DNA from: a virus
Virus record (IMG/VR): IMGVR_UViG_3300022686_000028
Span: 1 to 36,702 of that record
Strand: one strand, 5' to 3'
Length of the DNA: 36,702 nucleotides
Shown: piece after piece, positions 8,118-32,020 of the stretch
Layout of the letters: each line of letters starts with the position of its first letter
Position numbering within the stretch: the first letter of the stretch is position 1
Notes under the pieces: model-generated
What the model saw: the letters and a program-made list of their open reading frames with translations, nothing else
The model's database searches: none
What the model was told of the DNA's origin: nothing
Program-made: the position numbers and the translations under genes

Positions 8118-9581
8118 TTATGCAGCCTCTACCAAAAACCGGACAAAGTCACAATCGTTCACGACGCCGCCGCCGGTATAGCCACGAACAACCCAGCAGG
8201 TGCGATTCGAAAAAATGTTCGTGTCTTTTTTCGTATCCGTTGCCGGACCGTCGAGAATCAAAAATGACGAAAAGTCACCGAACACACCTGGGAAAGTGCC
8301 GTCGGTTTCGAAATCGCCAACAATCGTTTCGGAAATGTTGACGGGATGACCAAACAACGCCGGTCGCGAAGTCCCTTCGCCAACGCCTTGTGACAGCAAC
8401 GTTTGCCAAAAATAAAAGTTATCGTTGCCGTCTTTGAGTTTCAGGATTTGGCACCATGCCGTGTTAGAAAACAGCCACTGCGCACGGTTACTCGCACAGT
8501 TTGGTAACGCACACATCGCATCGATCAGCTTGTCCGGCGTCAAACCAGAGTCTGGAGTCAGGACAGGATCAGTCGACAAGCCGTTCGGGTGCAGAATCCC
8601 AAGCGGCCCCGCCTGGCCGTCGTCGTACAGATACAGAAACTCAAGGTTCTCTCGCAAGTCGCGCGTCAACTCATCCATGAGCAATCGCTCGGGATTCATC
8701 ATCGTAAACTTCAACAGCGCATCGCAAATGCCAGTGCACTGAGTCCACGGTTGCGGCCTGAATTCGATCCGGTCGCCCTCGGGGATATCGCACTTTGCTG
8801 GAGGTTCGCACTCGCAACCCTTGGCAAACGACGCCAACCGTTTAGTCAATCGTGGGATCGAGATCCCGATCGATGTCACGGTGACGACGTTGGCGATCGA
8901 GCGCATGACAACCGACTTGTCGCAGCATTTCTGCAACTCGGATGCGAACATCATCGGGTTAAGCATAAATCCGCCAGTGGCGAAATCACTCGGCCCCATG
9001 GTAGTACCGCATCCATCGTCGTTACACTCGTTCCAAACCTCATGCAGCCTGGTAACAAACACGTCGTGCCCTTGGACGTTTTTAACGGTGTCTCGCCACG
9101 CCTTACGGTACTTATCCGAATTCAGAGTTTTGCACGAAATCATTTTGCCGTCGTGCATGATCGTTTCGGAGTCGATAGGCTCGTACTGCCCTGGAGCGCC
9201 ACAGCGGAAAGTTGGAACGTTTGGCGACTGAGTCTGCCCACCGAAGTGTGGCATATTGCTGCCAAACTGTTGAGCGATCGCCTGAATGACTTCGGGCGAT
9301 AGCCCCGCTGTGCCCGATGCACCGTCGTCGCCTGGCTTCGTTCCAGGCTTGGCGTTCGAGATCAGCTTTTGCGCGTCAGCAGCAAGCTTCGCTTGCGATT
9401 CAAGCTTTGCTCGCTCGGTTTCGATTTGACCCTGGAGGTCGGTATATTCCGTCATCAAGTTGTTGATTTCGGTCACCTGGCCCTCGTCCCATTCGCCTTT
9501 TTCCTCGCGGGTTTTGTTGAGGTTTTTCAAGCGGTTGTGGACGTCGGCCTTTTTATCTTCAAGTTCGCCAATGGCTGGCAT
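8118..9581 (-). CDS. Major capsid protein, HK97 fold, with N-terminal scaffolding (delta) domain, 487 aa
   Basis: Residues 1-75 form a highly charged coiled coil (LEDKKADVHNRLKNLNKT, QGQIETERAKLESQAK) typical of the delta domain of HK97 gp5. A Gly/Pro-rich linker follows (about 78-125), where a maturation protease would cut. The remainder has capsid-fold features: a SDFATGGFMLNPMMFASELQK segment at the N-arm/E-loop junction, ENLEFLYLYDDGQAGPLGIL and a final GGGVVNDCDFVRFL strand. The partner protease and portal lie upstream. GGGGAG precedes the ATG. An intrinsic terminator lies only 23 nt before the start, which is unusual for a highly expressed gene. Confidence 0.92.
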   Translation of the reverse strand: MPAIGELEDKKADVHNRLKNLNKTREEKGEWDEGQVTEINNLMTEYTDLQGQIETERAKLESQAKLAADAQKLISNAKPGTKPGDDGASGTAGLSPEVIQAIAQQFGSNMPHFGGQTQSPNVPTFRCGAPGQYEPIDSETIMHDGKMISCKTLNSDKYRKAWRDTVKNVQGHDVFVTRLHEVWNECNDDGCGTTMGPSDFATGGFMLNPMMFASELQKCCDKSVVMRSIANVVTVTSIGISIPRLTKRLASFAKGCECEPPAKCDIPEGDRIEFRPQPWTQCTGICDALLKFTMMNPERLLMDELTRDLRENLEFLYLYDDGQAGPLGILHPNGLSTDPVLTPDSGLTPDKLIDAMCALPNCASNRAQWLFSNTAWCQILKLKDGNDNFYFWQTLLSQGVGEGTSRPALFGHPVNISETIVGDFETDGTFPGVFGDFSSFLILDGPATDTKKDTNIFSNRTCWVVRGYTGGGVVNDCDFVRFLVEAA

Positions 9582-10140: not shown

Positions 10141-11640
10141 CTAAGTAAACCACTCGGTTTCCGATAATCCCCTCAACACGATGCTCGCGCCAGCTGCCAG
10201 GGTAATTGATGCGTCAGTTGCCCCGCCATTTATTGAGTCACCGACGCCAGGAAAGATCTGCAACGTATTCGCGCCAGTGTTTCTGATGTAGCAGATTGAA
10301 CCCTCGGTGCAAAGGAACAGCGTAACCGCATCGTTCGTTGTCGTGACAGTTGCGACCTCGTTACGCTCGGCAATGATCGCTGTACCGCCGGCCTGGGTTT
10401 GTGTCGCACTGGCTGCGATCCCGGTGTCGGCGAGCTTCGTTCTGCCGCGGGCGGTCACGTTCTCAATATTGTGCTGGCATGGGGTTATGTACGGCTTGAC
10501 CGCGCCATTAGATTCGGAAGAGGTTAACGCTGCGTAAGTTTTTGGTGTACCGTGATTATGGTACTGACACCGATCTACAATGACCTCGGGTGTTCCGCCA
10601 GTTCCGTCTTGAGTCACGAGCACCTCACCCTCGCGTAAAACAAAATGGCCGCGATTCACAAATAGGCCGACGTCGCCAATTACCTTTATTCGGGAGTCCT
10701 GAGCGGTTGCGCCGCCAGATAAGTTGCCGTGACAGTCTTGCACGACTAAGTTGCTCATGGTCGTACCGCTCACACTTGCGTCGAGTTCAATATCAGCTCG
10801 ATCGTTTCCGGTCGAACCCTCGTTATTACTCTCAAACCAAGTGTTATAAATGTTGACCCCGTTGAACTCGTCATTGGCAGCAGCCACAGTCATCGCGATA
10901 GCCGGACCCTCGTTGCCTTCGAACCAACAATCGTGAAAGTTGTATTGTGCGCCGCGTGCCCACCCCAATGGCGAGAACGCACCATTTAGAGGGAGGTTAT
11001 TATCCCATCGACAATTTTCAAATGTGACAAGGTTGGCGGTAGTAGAGCCTGGAGTCCCCGTTGCGTCGTGTGTTGTTTTGGTGTTTTGACGAAACCATAG
11101 ATTTCTAAAGCGAGAGCCAATCGTCCAACAATAAAAGATCGGTTCCTTGAACAACGCCATTTTCATGTTTTCAAAAATCATCCGATTCCAGAATACAGTA
11201 GGCGCGTTTATCAAGCTGTTGAAATTATTCCAGTAACCATTGTTCACCCAGAATCGTCCGCTGCCAGTTCCTGATCCAACGAACGCCGAATCCCCAACCG
11301 CTACAGGCTTTATGTTTGCTTGTGGCGCGCAAAGAATGGCAATCGTCCCATCGGCACCCTTGCCTGCTGCCGCTGCTGCTGCCTGGATGTCGATGTCTTT
11401 AATGCGATGGACACCGCCAGCCGATGGACCAACCGGCGGTACCCAAATCGCATGACCGTCATCAAGAACCTTTTGCCACGCCGCGCTTTGGTCGGTTGCC
11501 GTGCCGAGTGCACTGTACTCGGCCGGATCAACCAAGTCGAAATCGTTTTCTAGTCCAGGCCCTGGCGGTCCTTGTGGTCCTGGCGGCCCTTGTGGACCAA
11601 CACCGCCGCTAGGCGAACAGCAGTCAGATTGAAAGATCAT
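10141..11640 (-). CDS. Collagen-like plus right-handed beta-helix fibre/spike, 499 aa
   Basis: Residues 15-29 are five Gly-X-Y triplets (GPQGPPGPQGPPGPG), a trimerising collagen-like stem. They are followed by a pectate-lyase-type beta-helix from about residue 60 to 370, with repeated N/D-rich rungs such as FENCRWDNN, FHDCWFEGNEG and IYNTWFESNNE. The C-terminal domain (about 420-499) is a beta cap with the TLQIFPGVGDSINGG and LAAGASIVL turns seen at the ends of phage fibres. The start is preceded by CTGGAG. The gene lies inside the head block, between the maturation protease and the capsid gene, so it may be a capsid-attached fibre rather than a tail fibre. No hydrolase active site is evident. 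Confidence 0.78.
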   Translation of the reverse strand: MIFQSDCCSPSGGVGPQGPPGPQGPPGPGLENDFDLVDPAEYSALGTATDQSAAWQKVLDDGHAIWVPPVGPSAGGVHRIKDIDIQAAAAAAGKGADGTIAILCAPQANIKPVAVGDSAFVGSGTGSGRFWVNNGYWNNFNSLINAPTVFWNRMIFENMKMALFKEPIFYCWTIGSRFRNLWFRQNTKTTHDATGTPGSTTANLVTFENCRWDNNLPLNGAFSPLGWARGAQYNFHDCWFEGNEGPAIAMTVAAANDEFNGVNIYNTWFESNNEGSTGNDRADIELDASVSGTTMSNLVVQDCHGNLSGGATAQDSRIKVIGDVGLFVNRGHFVLREGEVLVTQDGTGGTPEVIVDRCQYHNHGTPKTYAALTSSESNGAVKPYITPCQHNIENVTARGRTKLADTGIAASATQTQAGGTAIIAERNEVATVTTTNDAVTLFLCTEGSICYIRNTGANTLQIFPGVGDSINGGATDASITLAAGASIVLRGLSETEWFT

Positions 11641-11688
11641 GATCTACACTCCAGAGCCACCGTCACGCGGCGATCGTTTCCTCGGCGG

Positions 11689-21901: not shown

Positions 21902-22000
21902 CTAAGTGATCTCAATCACCTGCTGGACAACAAACCAGGACATGGCAATCACAATCCACGGGATCAAATCATTTGCGAGGTTTCTTGCTCTTGCCGTCAT
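21902..22000 (-). CDS. 32-aa single-pass membrane peptide overlapping the holin-like gene
   Basis: The frame runs from ATG 22000, inside the last 32 nt of the holin-like gene, to TAG 21902. The peptide has a basic start (MTARARN) and one hydrophobic helix (LIPWIVIAMSWFVVQQVI). The Shine-Dalgarno sequence of the next gene overlaps its stop codon. The position and membrane character suggest a lysis accessory or antiholin, but it could be untranslated. Confidence 0.45.
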   Translation of the reverse strand: MTARARNLANDLIPWIVIAMSWFVVQQVIEIT

Positions 22001-22283
22001 CGGTACATACCCCCAATAGTTTCAACAACTTAAGAATGATTCCGTCTGTCACTTCGCGCCCGGCCATCGTAATAACACCGCCGGTGGCAAAAGCATAGAT
22101 TTGCTTCTCTTGCGTAACGTTTCCAAAAATCAACATCGATGTCAGCAGGCCCGTCATCGAAGCCACCCAAGCAACCGATACGCAGTGGACCACTCCCTCG
22201 TAGTTACCGTTTCGAATCGTGCGCCAAAAACCGGCGACAAAATACACCACCCAGCACGAAGCCCAAAAGATATAAATTTCCAT
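21969..22283 (-). CDS. Holin-like membrane protein, 104 aa
   Basis: Three hydrophobic segments are visible: residues about 3-20 (IYIFWASCWVVYFVAGFW), 31-54 (VHCVSVAWVASMTGLLTSMLIFG) and a weaker one near 60-75. A charged tail (DDGKSKKPRK) follows. The size, helix count and cytoplasmic basic tail fit small phage holins (LydA or holin superfamily III type), and TGLLTSMLIFG resembles that group. The start at 22283 lacks a clear Shine-Dalgarno sequence. It lies in a lysis-like block with the metalloprotease. Identification as a holin is inferred. Confidence 0.55.
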   Translation of the reverse strand: MEIYIFWASCWVVYFVAGFWRTIRNGNYEGVVHCVSVAWVASMTGLLTSMLIFGNVTQEKQIYAFATGGVITMAGREVTDGIILKLLKLLGVCTDDGKSKKPRK

Positions 22284-22393: not shown

Positions 22394-23032
22394 TTACCAA
22401 CGACGTGATCGCCAACGAGAACGGATACCGAATCGCCGAACTCCAGACCCAACGCTTCCGTATCCGCCACCACCGGCATCTGGTAACGGTGGTGTACCCG
22501 CAAACTGCACTGTCCGTCCTCTTACTACGTAACCAGTCGTGTAAGCTGGCCGACACACGCCGTTCGCGCAGGCCGGCGCAGCCACCGTCTTTGTCACGAC
22601 TCGTTCGACTGTTTTTGTTTTAGCCTTGGCTTTTGCTCGTTGCCGTAGCCGGAACGTACCGTCGCGGAGCTTTATAAATGTTCGCTCATTTTTGCTCAGC
22701 CAGAGCGTGCCCGGCTCAGCATTACAGGTGGTAACCTCGCACGAGTCGGCAATTCCGATCGGACGCAGGAACGCCACGATTTTGGTTCCCTCGCCTTCGC
22801 GAACGAGTCCAACCCTGGACGGATCGACCAGCGTTTGATCGGCCGGTTCCGGTTCTGGTTCTGGCTGTTCGTCGTTGGGCAATGGTGGCGTTTCGTTTGG
22901 TGGCGTTTCGTTTGGCGCAGCAAAAAACTCTGGCTGTTCTGTTGGCAGCGGTGGTCTATCTGGTGTCGTATTAGGCTGCACAGCAGCTGCGGCGACCAGC
23001 AGGACGGCAGCCGCTCCCATGATTTGTTTCAT
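22394..23032 (-). CDS. Secreted Pro-rich protein with signal peptide, 212 aa
   Basis: It starts at ATG 23032 with AGGAGA upstream; an earlier ATG at 23077 would put charged residues before the signal. Residues 1-19 (MKQIMGAAAVLLVAAAAVQ) are a Sec signal peptide. Residues 20-68 are Pro/Glu-rich with a PNETP duplication and an EPEPEPEP run. A small beta domain with CEVTTC follows, then a KAKAKTKT basic segment and CANGVCRP, a motif resembling those in secreted planctomycete proteins. It could be a periplasmic spanin-like or lysis accessory, but this is not established. The C-terminal 30 residues are Gly/Arg-rich. Confidence 0.55.
   Translation of the reverse strand: MKQIMGAAAVLLVAAAAVQPNTTPDRPPLPTEQPEFFAAPNETPPNETPPLPNDEQPEPEPEPADQTLVDPSRVGLVREGEGTKIVAFLRPIGIADSCEVTTCNAEPGTLWLSKNERTFIKLRDGTFRLRQRAKAKAKTKTVERVVTKTVAAPACANGVCRPAYTTGYVVRGRTVQFAGTPPLPDAGGGGYGSVGSGVRRFGIRSRWRSRRW
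22852..22915. repeat. Short tandem repeats inside the Pro-rich protein gene
   Basis: A 15-bp unit (TGGCGTTTCGTTTGG on the plus strand) is present twice in tandem at 22886-22915 and encodes the PNETP duplication. Beside it, near 22852-22864, a GGTTCC/GGTTCT hexamer is tandemly repeated and encodes EPEPEP. Such repeats are prone to copy-number change. Confidence 0.75.
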
Positions 23033-23138: not shown

Positions 23139-24008
23139 CTACGCCGCGCGTTCCAGCCAAGTTTCCTGGATCACTCGTTGTTGGTTTATCCATTCGCCCA
23201 CAGTTTGGAGCATGAGTACCTTATCACCGTCGTCGTCGGGCGGTGGAGTCGGATCAGGATCCGGGCCGCTCGGTTTGCCGTACAGTTTTTGGATTGCTCG
23301 AATGTCGCTCGGCCCTGGTTCTTGAGTGCCGTTGATTGCGTAGTACATGATTGAGTTGGGGTCGTTGTCGTGATCGAGGCCGTCAGCGTGACCTATCTCG
23401 TGGCACATTGTCGGCCGTAAAAACGTTCGCTCGCGAGTATCCCAATTCTCAAAATCGTAGCGCTGTTCGAGCTGTACGCTACGCTTTGCGTTTGGTGGCG
23501 GAAGCATCGACCAAGCAAGCGTTCCGTTCGGACCGTCGATCCGCCGCGCATGCGCAAACACGTTTGGCGGTGTCTGCAGGTTGGGGATCCACTTCATATC
23601 GAGCTTTGATACGTCGTTCCACATCTGGCACGCTTCGAGGTAGATTGTTTTCGCTTCCTCGTGTGTCACACCAGGAAATTCCATGTCGTGCCAGACCTGG
23701 ACGTCCAAGAACGACCAGTTCGATCCGCCAGCGCCACGAATGTCCGGACAGCCACAACGACGTTGCAACATGGTTCGCGCAGTCTTGCCGCCGAATTCGC
23801 CGTCGACGATCTGCGACGTGTACCGCTGTAACGAGGCAGTCGCATCCGCAAATAAAGATGACTTATGATCTGTCACCTTCGAGCGAATAGACTCAGCCGT
23901 TCCGTCGTCAACGCACGGCCAGCGATCGGAGACGAAATGGCCGAGCTTGATAAGCAACTCAAGCTTATCGTCGAACGTCTGCGGCACGAGCTTGCGAACT
24001 AAGTACAT
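23139..24008 (-). CDS. Matrixin-type (M10) zinc metalloprotease with PG-binding-like prodomain and cysteine switch, 289 aa
   Basis: Counted from ATG 24008: residues about 47-82 resemble PG_binding_1 (SLFADATASLQRYTS, GEFGGKTARTMLQRR). Directly after comes RCGCPD (84-89), the matrixin cysteine switch (PRCGxPD) that holds the zymogen inactive. The catalytic domain follows, with zinc ligands in HEIGHADGLDH (203-213; Glu204 catalytic) and the Met-turn SIMYY (Met221). A Pro/Asp linker (about 245-262) leads to a short C-terminal helix. It lies in the lysis block and is the only peptidoglycan- or envelope-directed enzyme candidate there. I see no signal peptide, so a holin would be needed for release. 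A TTG at 24029 is a less likely start. Confidence 0.85.
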   Translation of the reverse strand: MYLVRKLVPQTFDDKLELLIKLGHFVSDRWPCVDDGTAESIRSKVTDHKSSLFADATASLQRYTSQIVDGEFGGKTARTMLQRRCGCPDIRGAGGSNWSFLDVQVWHDMEFPGVTHEEAKTIYLEACQMWNDVSKLDMKWIPNLQTPPNVFAHARRIDGPNGTLAWSMLPPPNAKRSVQLEQRYDFENWDTRERTFLRPTMCHEIGHADGLDHDNDPNSIMYYAINGTQEPGPSDIRAIQKLYGKPSGPDPDPTPPPDDDGDKVLMLQTVGEWINQQRVIQETWLERAA

Positions 24009-24012
24009 GCGA

Positions 24013-24291
24013 CTAGCCAAGACCCCCAATCAACGCGAACAGTTCTTTAAGAAACGCGATGATCTCCGGCCATTCGTCGAGGAACTTTTGAAACAACGTT
24101 CCGTCGCCTAACGCTTTCTCAACATTGTGGCGGCCGATCAATTGTTCCAGCTTGACAACTGCAGCGTCAAGCAAGTCATCATCGCGCAACGTAGCGCGGA
24201 GCAAAGCAACCTGTTCGTGATCACCCTCATGCCGAGCTTTGCGCATTTCAATGCGCGTCGCTAACCGCGCGTGCAGCCGAAATCTTTTCAT
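24013..24291 (-). CDS. Hypothetical protein in the lysis block, 92 aa
   Basis: ATG 24291 has GGAGAGGTGAT directly upstream and overlaps the end of the preceding gene, which favours it over 24327. The N-terminal third is strongly basic (MKRFRLHARLATRIEMRKARH). The middle is acidic and helical, and the C-terminus is a hydrophobic amphipathic helix (IIAFLKELFALIGGLG). It has no recognised domain. It may be a membrane-associated lysis accessory. Confidence 0.55.
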   Translation of the reverse strand: MKRFRLHARLATRIEMRKARHEGDHEQVALLRATLRDDDLLDAAVVKLEQLIGRHNVEKALGDGTLFQKFLDEWPEIIAFLKELFALIGGLG

Positions 24292-29994: not shown

Positions 29995-31752
29995 TCAATA
30001 TTCCTCATCGTCTGTCTTGATGATTCCCTCGTAGGCGTAAAATCTCTCACTCCTTGCGCCAAGCTTCCGCCGCTTGGTTTGTGGAAAAACTCTGAACACC
30101 TCTTTTCCAAACGATCTATTCGACATTTCACGGTTACCGTTCTTACGGCACCATTCGCGATAGTGCTCGTAAACGTCCTGGGAAGACACATTCGACATCG
30201 AGTTAGACTTGTAGTGTTGTTGCAGGAATTCACGCGCAGGGTTGTTATCGTTGCGATACTCTTCGAGCTCATCGACGCAGATTTGAGGGATTGTGAAGTC
30301 ATCATTTCTGCGAATTCGATGAAGTCCGCAAACCGCCCAATTGAACATGCCTGGTAGTTCGCCCTTAGCTTCCCAGAATTTCGAACGATCCATGCCCCGG
30401 ATGCGTTCCTCCTTCGTGATCACCTTCTCGAACGGAACGATCAGGATACGGCGCCAGATGCCGCTAGACTTGTCTGAGAACCGCGGTCGGTTGTTGGTGC
30501 CTATCATCAACCTGGCCGTCGGGATCGTGTCTATGCCCGGTATTCCCTTGCGGTCGAAGAACTGGGTATCGCCCGAGGTGTATGCTTTGAGGTACCCCTC
30601 GCAGATCTTATCGAGCTCACCGACGTCGGTGCAGATGTTGACTAGCTTGCCCAGTGTTTGCGACTTGGCGAAGCGATCGCCAAACACTTCGAGCGGAACC
30701 GCCGAGCAGCTATCGTTCCCGAGCATTGCCCGGATGCCGGCACAATAGACAGATTTACCGTTCGAACCGTCGCCTTCCATGATCAGAAATTTGGCGAACG
30801 TCGTGTCGTTCAAGAGCAGGTAGCCAGCCCACTCTTGCAGCAGTTGGATCCGCTCTCCGTCGCCTTCCATCACGGTGTTGAGGTACTTTTTCCAGATCGG
30901 GCAGTCTGCGTCCGGGTCGAATGCATACGGCCTGGCCGAGAGCGTGAACCAACGAGGGTCATGTGGTCGCAGCGGATTCTGCTCGCCGGCCAACAAAGCA
31001 TCCAGGTCGAGGATCCCATTATCCAGGCTTACCCAGTTTTTTTGTTCGCGATCATCGATCCAGCTGCCTCGTTCTACGTCGGAGCTGATCAGTGTTAGAC
31101 TGGCTGTTGCCTTCATAACGTTTGAAACCAGCTGATTGTTGACCTGACGGACCGGCTTTTCATCCTTGGTTCCAACGCTTTCGCGATAAAGACGAACAAA
31201 TTCCTCATCAATGGACGACCAGAGTTTTGCGTGTAGGTCGCCTCGCTTGATCGGTTTGTAGTATTTCCCCGTCCACTTGAAAAATTCGTCCCGCCAGAAC
31301 CTGATCGACCGCCCATGTTTTGTCGAGTATTTGGCAAGGTTGATTTGTGCCAGCCTGGTGGGGTCAACGTCGCTCCGATCGGCTTCAACATCGACTTCGC
31401 TTGCATCGGCCGACGATTCACACAGTGCCTCGAAGTCCGCCCAGCTGTGACCGTCGGCGAAATAGTCGCGCAAGTCCTTACCGTGGTTCTCAGTGATCGC
31501 ATAAGGCAGGATGACATTGCGAACGACGTCGACGTGTTTGGCGATCGCCTGCACCCAACGGCCGGCGCCTTCTTGCCCTGGCCGGTCGCAGTCGCGAACT
31601 ACGTTCACAATGTCGTAGCCCTTGAATGCCTCGGCCATCCAGCCAGGCTTTTCACCGGCGCCGAACGCATTGCAAACGACGGTTGCCTCTGGGTTTTTCG
31701 ACAGTGCTGCGAGCATGTCCGTCGGACCTTCGACGCTGTAAGCTGTTTTCAT
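29995..31752 (-). CDS. Primase-helicase: TOPRIM plus D5_N plus SF3 helicase, 585 aa
   Basis: It begins right at the TOPRIM domain: SVEGPTDML with Glu8, then VVRDCDRPGQEGA with Asp54 and Asp56. D5_N lies in the middle (about 230-320; WVSLDNGILDLDALL and LLQEWAGYLLL). The SF3 helicase follows, with Walker A GDGSNGKS (327-334), Walker B-like VNICTDVGELD, motif C ARLMIGTNNRPRF and arginine finger GIWRRI. A winged-helix tail (YEHYREWCRKNG) ends it. ATG 31752 lies 1 nt after the stop of the 88-aa ORF. The zinc-binding and N-terminal primase half is a separate gene upstream. It is required for phage DNA replication. Confidence 0.9.
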   Translation of the reverse strand: MKTAYSVEGPTDMLAALSKNPEATVVCNAFGAGEKPGWMAEAFKGYDIVNVVRDCDRPGQEGAGRWVQAIAKHVDVVRNVILPYAITENHGKDLRDYFADGHSWADFEALCESSADASEVDVEADRSDVDPTRLAQINLAKYSTKHGRSIRFWRDEFFKWTGKYYKPIKRGDLHAKLWSSIDEEFVRLYRESVGTKDEKPVRQVNNQLVSNVMKATASLTLISSDVERGSWIDDREQKNWVSLDNGILDLDALLAGEQNPLRPHDPRWFTLSARPYAFDPDADCPIWKKYLNTVMEGDGERIQLLQEWAGYLLLNDTTFAKFLIMEGDGSNGKSVYCAGIRAMLGNDSCSAVPLEVFGDRFAKSQTLGKLVNICTDVGELDKICEGYLKAYTSGDTQFFDRKGIPGIDTIPTARLMIGTNNRPRFSDKSSGIWRRILIVPFEKVITKEERIRGMDRSKFWEAKGELPGMFNWAVCGLHRIRRNDDFTIPQICVDELEEYRNDNNPAREFLQQHYKSNSMSNVSSQDVYEHYREWCRKNGNREMSNRSFGKEVFRVFPQTKRRKLGARSERFYAYEGIIKTDDEEY

Positions 31753-31753
31753 T

Positions 31754-32020
31754 TCAGCCGATCCATTCCTTGGCTGTTGTTGGTTGAAAAACAAACGGAA
31801 TGTGCACAACTTCCGCGTACTTACATAAGCGATCCCTCAAAGTCCTTGCGACATGTTCCGATGAGTTGCATTGTGGAGTGCCGTAGACTCTGTGAAACAA
31901 AATGCAGTCATCGACAACGAGCCACCAACAATCGTCAATTATCATTGTCAACCCGCCCCTGGGTGTTGTTGCCCGTTTGACGGGAACCTTTCTGCACATA
32001 GACAGATATTTGTCCGACAT
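31754..32020 (-). CDS. 88-aa ORF inserted between the primase halves
   Basis: It starts at ATG 32020 just after the TAG of the primase N-terminal gene (TAGGAT forms the Shine-Dalgarno element) and ends 1 nt before the helicase gene start. The protein has a hydrophobic segment (TMIIDDCWWLVVDDCILFH), five Cys and a basic helix (HVARTLRDRLCKYAEVVHIP). It carries no HNH, GIY-YIG, intein or intron signature. It interrupts what is one protein in many phages. Confidence 0.6.
   Translation of the reverse strand: MSDKYLSMCRKVPVKRATTPRGGLTMIIDDCWWLVVDDCILFHRVYGTPQCNSSEHVARTLRDRLCKYAEVVHIPFVFQPTTAKEWIG

Follow-up and report, generated by a model that had tools for sequence, protein, structure and literature searches.

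Lysis of the bacterial host by phages is thought to need an endolysin that degrades peptidoglycan, and a modular layout that joins a catalytic domain to a peptidoglycan-binding-type domain is known for such enzymes. Particle-borne enzymes that serve in penetration of the envelope are well known in general, and in the M10A family of metalloproteases latency is maintained through ligation of the zinc by a cysteine. A search of papers available without subscription revealed no phage-encoded matrixin with a cysteine switch. The nearest known work is on a Listeria phage-derived metzincin paired with a TIMP-like protein; this metzincin carries a Sec signal peptide, cleaves a lipoprotein partner, and sensitizes cells to lysins (PMC8235301). 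Karilysin of Tannerella forsythia, a T9SS-exported protein, has a 14-residue propeptide together with a signal peptide (PMC4404884), and family M10 is absent from the main text of a survey of lytic proteins of viruses from 2025 (PMC12596118). Here we describe a phage family whose members combine a matrixin catalytic domain with a full prodomain and cysteine switch, and we consider what part such a protein may play in the infection.

Results

Sequence and predicted structure of the phage matrixin

The window, by which we mean the whole stretch of DNA that was analyzed, is a linear IMG/VR virus record of 36,702 bases. It encodes TerL, a portal protein with an adjoining ClpP-type protease, an HK97-type capsid protein, a tape measure protein, and D5-type and RecD2-like helicases; the source is a tailed phage whose genome is probably incomplete in this record. 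Searches with TerL and the portal protein for close relatives of this phage returned distant matches only. The C terminus of the D5-type helicase protein (positions 29995 to 31809) gave a match to the RFX DNA-binding domain (E 2e-15).

A preliminary description had placed a matrixin gene in the window, and both the gene and its identity were borne out by the open reading frame, which begins with an ATG at 24008 (an alternative in-frame TTG lies at 24029), and by a match of the product to PF00413, Matrixin/Peptidase_M10 (E 2e-14; 54.2 bits against a cutoff of 24). The features are collected in Table 1. PF00413 was the sole Pfam family found in the protein, and no muralytic catalytic domain was detected in it. 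The switch, zinc-binding, and Met-turn motifs are present as had been described, with the switch 119 residues ahead of HExGH. Comparison with the PDB by phmmer gave collagenase-3 over the catalytic part (E 2.6e-13) and proMMP-1 over residues 64 to 259, switch included (E 5e-13), and the match to matrixins is, as judged from sequence, far beyond chance. Since the proMMP-1 match is accompanied by a switch cysteine and zinc-site residues that are invariant in 39 sequences, we discount a chance origin of the motifs. By eye, no signal peptide was recognizable at the N terminus (MYLVRKLVPQTFDDKLELLIKLGHF).

Table 1. Position and basis of assignment of features at the pro-matrixin locus
Feature	Position in window	Strand	Basis
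Pro-matrixin (M10A-like metalloprotease zymogen), 289 aa	23139..24008	(-)	PF00413 match, AF2 model, proMMP structural matches
Prodomain, residues 1-90, small helical PG_binding_1/proMMP-type	23739..24008	(-)	PF01471 in homologues, model helices, VIA alignments
Cysteine switch RCGCPD, residues 84-89, switch Cys85	23742..23759	(-)	Sequence and 39-row alignment
Zinc-binding/catalytic motif HEIGHADGLDH, residues 203-213	23370..23402	(-)	Sequence and invariant residues
Met-turn SIMYY, residues 219-223	23340..23354	(-)	Sequence
85-aa protein two genes upstream of protease, one N-terminal TM segment	24293..24550	(-)	Hydropathy
92-aa protein, hydrophobic C terminus, directly upstream of protease	24013..24291	(-)	Sequence
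Pro-rich protein, signal-like N terminus (MKQIMGAAAVLLVAAAAV), directly downstream of protease	22394..23032	(-)	Sequence
104-aa membrane protein, one clear TM and two weaker hydrophobic stretches, two genes downstream of protease	21969..22283	(-)	Hydropathy

An AlphaFold2 model of the window protein, built from the 39-sequence alignment (pLDDT 84; pTM 0.79), was poorly predicted only in the C-terminal tail (residues 262 to 289) and placed prodomain helices at residues 12 to 21, 38 to 44, 51 to 63, and 74 to 79. Foldseek ranked proMMP entries first, and in VIA-align the closest matches to this predicted, not solved, structure were human proMMPs (Z 22.6 to 24.2), with alignments that begin at model residues 1 to 14 and with proMMP-2 aligned over residues 1 to 247 (Z 24.2; rmsd 2.8). 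Fourteen proMMP rows outranked the first catalytic-only entries (Z about 19 to 20), so the prodomain shares in the match and the catalytic core does not account for it alone. The comparison with M10A zymogens that had been set as a check on the original reading therefore returned human proMMPs as the best matches, prodomain included, and the model supports a prodomain packed on the catalytic domain as in proMMP zymogens.

A family of phage pro-matrixins

Searches with single sequences found no close relatives in IMG/VR viral contigs or INPHARED. A pattern composed of the matrixin active site and Met-turn recovered at least 119 viral stretches from IMG/VR (L002 to L120), mostly single-domain metzincins with neither prodomain nor switch motif; among the matches listed, the window architecture, in which a PGBD/prodomain is followed by RCGxxD, was seen in L036, L114, and L115 only. 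Viral metzincins that lack this prodomain are common in IMG/VR, often have signal peptides, and probably act outside the cell. An RCGQAN sequence in L065 was considered as a switch and rejected, as it lies only 42 residues ahead of the zinc site, which is far too close. Three further viral-contig matrixins (L012, L049, and L098) have Tat/Sec-like N termini followed immediately by a CG(V/N)-type motif and constitute a second, secreted viral type with a short pro-segment.

The family, which single sequences had not opened, was reached with an alignment of four proteins (the window protein, L036, L114, and L115), a query that recovered 80 loci, more than 40 of them full-length. Full-length relatives are present in at least 40 other IMG/VR records, from phages of about 30 to 60 kb up to about 205 kb; they have a C-G-L/C-P-D-type motif 118 to 125 residues ahead of HExGH, and no signal peptide was seen by eye in the full-length viral relatives inspected. 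The 39 relatives that were aligned are stand-alone proteins of 245 to 320 aa, and none is fused to a structural protein. Invariant in all 39 rows are Cys85, Trp98, Trp130, Leu164, His203, Glu204, Gly206, His207, Gly210, His213, Asp235, and Tyr243; Asp89 is nearly so, and the cysteine is constant within a switch context that varies (RCGLPD, RCGCPD, YCNHPD, FCALPD, and RCMTPD). The window protein is thus a member of a broad phage family and not a single odd gene. No fitting family for it exists in PHROGs or NCBIfam, and tblastn of INPHARED with two family members as queries found no match.

PF00413 was detected in every one of the 39 aligned homologues and PF01471 (PG_binding_1) in 29 of them, with a best E value of 1.4e-12; of 29 related viral records, 21 contain a single PG_binding_1 domain, at coordinates that place it inside the pro-matrixin. 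The prodomain had originally been described as PG_binding_1-like. For the window protein itself Pfam gave no PF01471 match even at E 10, and its own prodomain is, on sequence grounds, too diverged for that model; the likeness holds for the homologues and for the predicted proMMP-like fold. Sequence, homologues, and predicted fold together support the reading of the protein as an MMP-type zymogen.

In the family tree, in which several branches are long, the window protein groups with L121 (support 99/98), and a copy from a Planctomycetaceae MAG (L201) is the sister of the group from phages of about 205 kb (98/95). Relatives of cellular origin, from Actinomadura and a Chlorobiaceae MAG, are placed elsewhere. 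The L201 contig is phage-like, with HNH, TerL, and portal genes after the protease in the same order as in the window, and it was the sole full-length match in 392 Planctomycetota genomes (E 3e-83; model positions 5 to 236), which suggests that some members of the family have planctomycete hosts. Another 52 of these genomes match mainly the catalytic half. An origin from a host gene within Planctomycetota was considered; the one full-length match is on a phage-like contig, although two of the other 52 align from model position 35.

Gene neighborhoods

In the window, the protease gene separates the early region from the tail/terminase genes, in a late-region position with LamG and beta-helix proteins beside it. 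The small membrane proteins and the Pro-rich protein that had been reported around it are as claimed, the latter with a signal-like N terminus (Table 1), and none of the four neighboring products listed there has a Pfam or PHROG match. The 85-aa protein is a possible holin-like partner, the 104-aa protein a candidate holin, and the Pro-rich protein a possible envelope partner.

Similar surroundings recur among relatives. In the lineage of phages of about 205 kb, the genes at -2, -1, +1, +2, and +3 mostly encode small TM or exported proteins: ahead of the protease are proteins with two TM segments (about 120 aa) and with one (about 134 aa), and small proteins with an N-terminal TM segment follow it. 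In L121, L122, L123, L169, and L170, the protease is preceded by a family of proteins of 239 to 339 aa, and all of these loci except L169 have a homologous one-TM protein of 131 to 175 aa two genes downstream, so that a secreted partner upstream and a TM protein two genes downstream are similarly paired in the four. When genes were called with a simple ORF caller and TM segments were assigned by hydropathy, same-strand TM proteins no longer than 200 aa accounted for 48 of 92 genes at positions ±1 to 2 and for 47 of 288 farther out; with one record per lineage, the counts were 14 of 52 and 15 of 142 (P 0.006). No described holin family was found among the neighbors tested. In the records of L121 and L170 (G001 and G019) head/tail genes surround the cassette, and the L114 protease gene lies between head-tail genes.

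Several other genes near the protease were noted. L121 has a Lipase_3 gene (8160 to 8951; E 1e-14) three genes upstream of the protease, between a small TM protein and the cassette, whose product is a possible partner in outer-membrane lysis. Exported thioredoxin-like proteins are encoded nearby in three diverged phages, L121 (10924 to 11703; WCVNC), L170 (10825 to 11643; CPPC), and L172 (10042 to 10602; WCGPC); only the first is confirmed by Pfam, whereas in the other two a CxxC is visible. They might have a part in redox control of the cysteine switch. In L201, L182, and L186, a homologous exported-looking protein of 466 to 517 aa is encoded directly downstream of the protease, and small exported proteins rich in Gln/Val repeats come next in several loci. 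Beside the L122 protease, the gene at 8450 to 9067 encodes a phrog_1128 match (E 3e-13), and that at 10848 to 11660 a CMAS-like methyltransferase whose N terminus is signal-like.

Search for endolysins

None of the 52 ORFs of the linear 36.7-kb fragment has a muralytic domain, in agreement with the original statement that no muramidase, amidase, or transglycosylase is visible in the window; as the record is a linear fragment, an endolysin in the missing part is possible. The search was extended to seven muralytic-type families and M23 in 29 related viral records, which represent far fewer independent lineages: Amidase_2, SLT, GH24, M15_4, M15_3, and NLPC_P60 had no match, and CHAP and M23 had subthreshold matches only. 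In two of the 29 records, each of about 205 kb, the ends overlap, by 128 bp (98%) in one and by about 920 bp (86%; possibly a repeat) in the other. M23 was considered as a hidden endolysin of the big phages and rejected, the weak subthreshold matches being in two large proteins; one of these is similar to proteins that carry the annotation of phage RNA polymerase subunits, and for this reason its match is probably due to chance. Among the matches listed for 25 families, no muralytic enzyme appeared in the 120 ORFs scanned from one 205-kb record (G008). Trypsin-like, collagen-repeat, and Laminin_G_3 proteins are also encoded by this phage (L280 to L290).

Amidase_2 was detected in only 4 of 50 viral records used for comparison. 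A given family is thus often lacking, which makes the absence of an endolysin weak evidence; we rejected the argument that it is decisive. Nor can a wall-less host be invoked as the explanation, since planctomycetes possess peptidoglycan (PMC4432640).

Discussion

We favor, with confidence evenly balanced for and against, the reading that the phage pro-matrixin is a proteolytic, zymogen-controlled substitute for an endolysin. Family membership, the conserved catalytic and switch residues, the zymogen fold, the distribution, and the neighborhood are computational findings. Beyond these, we infer that the protein, having no signal peptide, would be synthesized in the cytoplasm and kept latent by binding of the prodomain Cys85 to the catalytic zinc; late in infection it would reach the periplasm through a holin-type lesion and be activated there by loss or cleavage of the prodomain or by displacement of the cysteine, and the active enzyme would then cut envelope proteins or peptide parts of the wall until the cell bursts. 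The peptidoglycan-binding signature kept in the prodomains of many relatives could target the enzyme to the wall. We advance only tentatively, and with some doubt, the wider proposition that host lysis in several tailed-phage lineages, with genomes of up to about 205 kb, is the work of a protease and not of a wall hydrolase, and that this protease is controlled as a zymogen by the prodomain and cysteine switch found in animal MMPs. The preliminary description had spoken of a lysis block without an endolysin, and this stands in part: the membrane and exported neighbors and the lack of an over-threshold match to eight families in 29 records favor it, but a virion role also fits, and the scarcity of Amidase_2 in the comparison records weakens the inference from absence.

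A virion-associated protease, packed as a zymogen in the tail or head, activated at the cell surface, and cutting proteinaceous outer layers on entry, is a rather unlikely alternative that accords with the position of the window gene beside LamG and beta-helix genes and with the lack of a signal peptide; the location among head and tail genes in G001, G019, and L114 suits a virion protein equally well. Against it are the stand-alone form of all 39 aligned relatives, none of them joined to a structural protein, and the enrichment of small membrane proteins nearby, which is unusual for tail genes. The absence of recognizable endolysins from many environmental phage contigs leaves room for lysis by an unrecognized endolysin, the matrixin being an accessory protease with other targets, such as host surface proteins, superinfection exclusion, defense, or processing of virus proteins. 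The prodomain-less viral metzincins, common in IMG/VR and probably extracellular, and the Listeria phage-derived pair, which only sensitizes cells to lysins (PMC8235301), are in keeping with this explanation, which we regard as unlikely: a ClpP-type protease is encoded beside the portal gene of the window phage, so that head maturation needs no matrixin, and the retention of the protein by many diverged phages, with PG_binding_1 in the pro-matrixin only, points to the wall.

It is also conceivable that the matrixin catalytic domain has been adapted to the stem or cross-link peptides of peptidoglycan rather than to proteins. The modular layout implied by PF01471 in 29 of 39 homologues would suit such a muralytic enzyme, but the catalytic fold aligns with the catalytic domains of protein-cleaving MMPs (Z about 19 to 20) and we know of no matrixin that cuts D-amino-acid peptides, and we consider this version very improbable.

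If the proteolytic lysis reading is true, phages with a conserved zymogen protease in a membrane-protein cassette and no recognizable endolysin would breach bacterial cells by an alternative route and could supply proteolytic lysins. The presence of cysteine-switch proMMPs in viruses of bacteria bears on the origin of the MMP prodomain, and a prodomain kept as a peptidoglycan-binding module would, if true, connect the wall-binding domains of lysins with the source of the MMP propeptide. Even without a role in lysis, an unannotated family found in dozens of viral records deserves a name.

Comparison with known systems

The animal MMP zymogens (MEROPS M10A; proMMP-1, -2, -3, and -9) have the same order of helical prodomain, RCGxPD switch, HExxHxxGxxH, and Met-turn, and they match the whole model at Z 23 to 24. 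The phage protein differs from them in the lack of a signal peptide and a hemopexin domain, in its Pro-rich C-terminal tail, and in being phage encoded next to small membrane proteins, and identity in structural alignment is only about 23 to 25%. Karilysin shares the MMP-like catalytic domain, with a structural match at Z 20.2, whereas the phage protein has a full prodomain with cysteine switch in place of the short propeptide and no signal peptide. Other IMG/VR metzincins have the matrixin-type active site in common with it and, among the matches listed, are mostly single-domain proteins without a switch motif. The Listeria metzincin is likewise of phage origin and affects the cell envelope and lysis sensitivity, with no cysteine-switch prodomain described in the available part of the report (PMC8235301). 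Modular endolysins with a peptidoglycan-binding domain resemble the phage family in being stand-alone late proteins without a signal peptide and, as in many of the relatives, with a PG_binding_1-type N terminus; the catalytic domain of the phage protein, in contrast, is a matrixin protease and not a muramidase, amidase, or transglycosylase.
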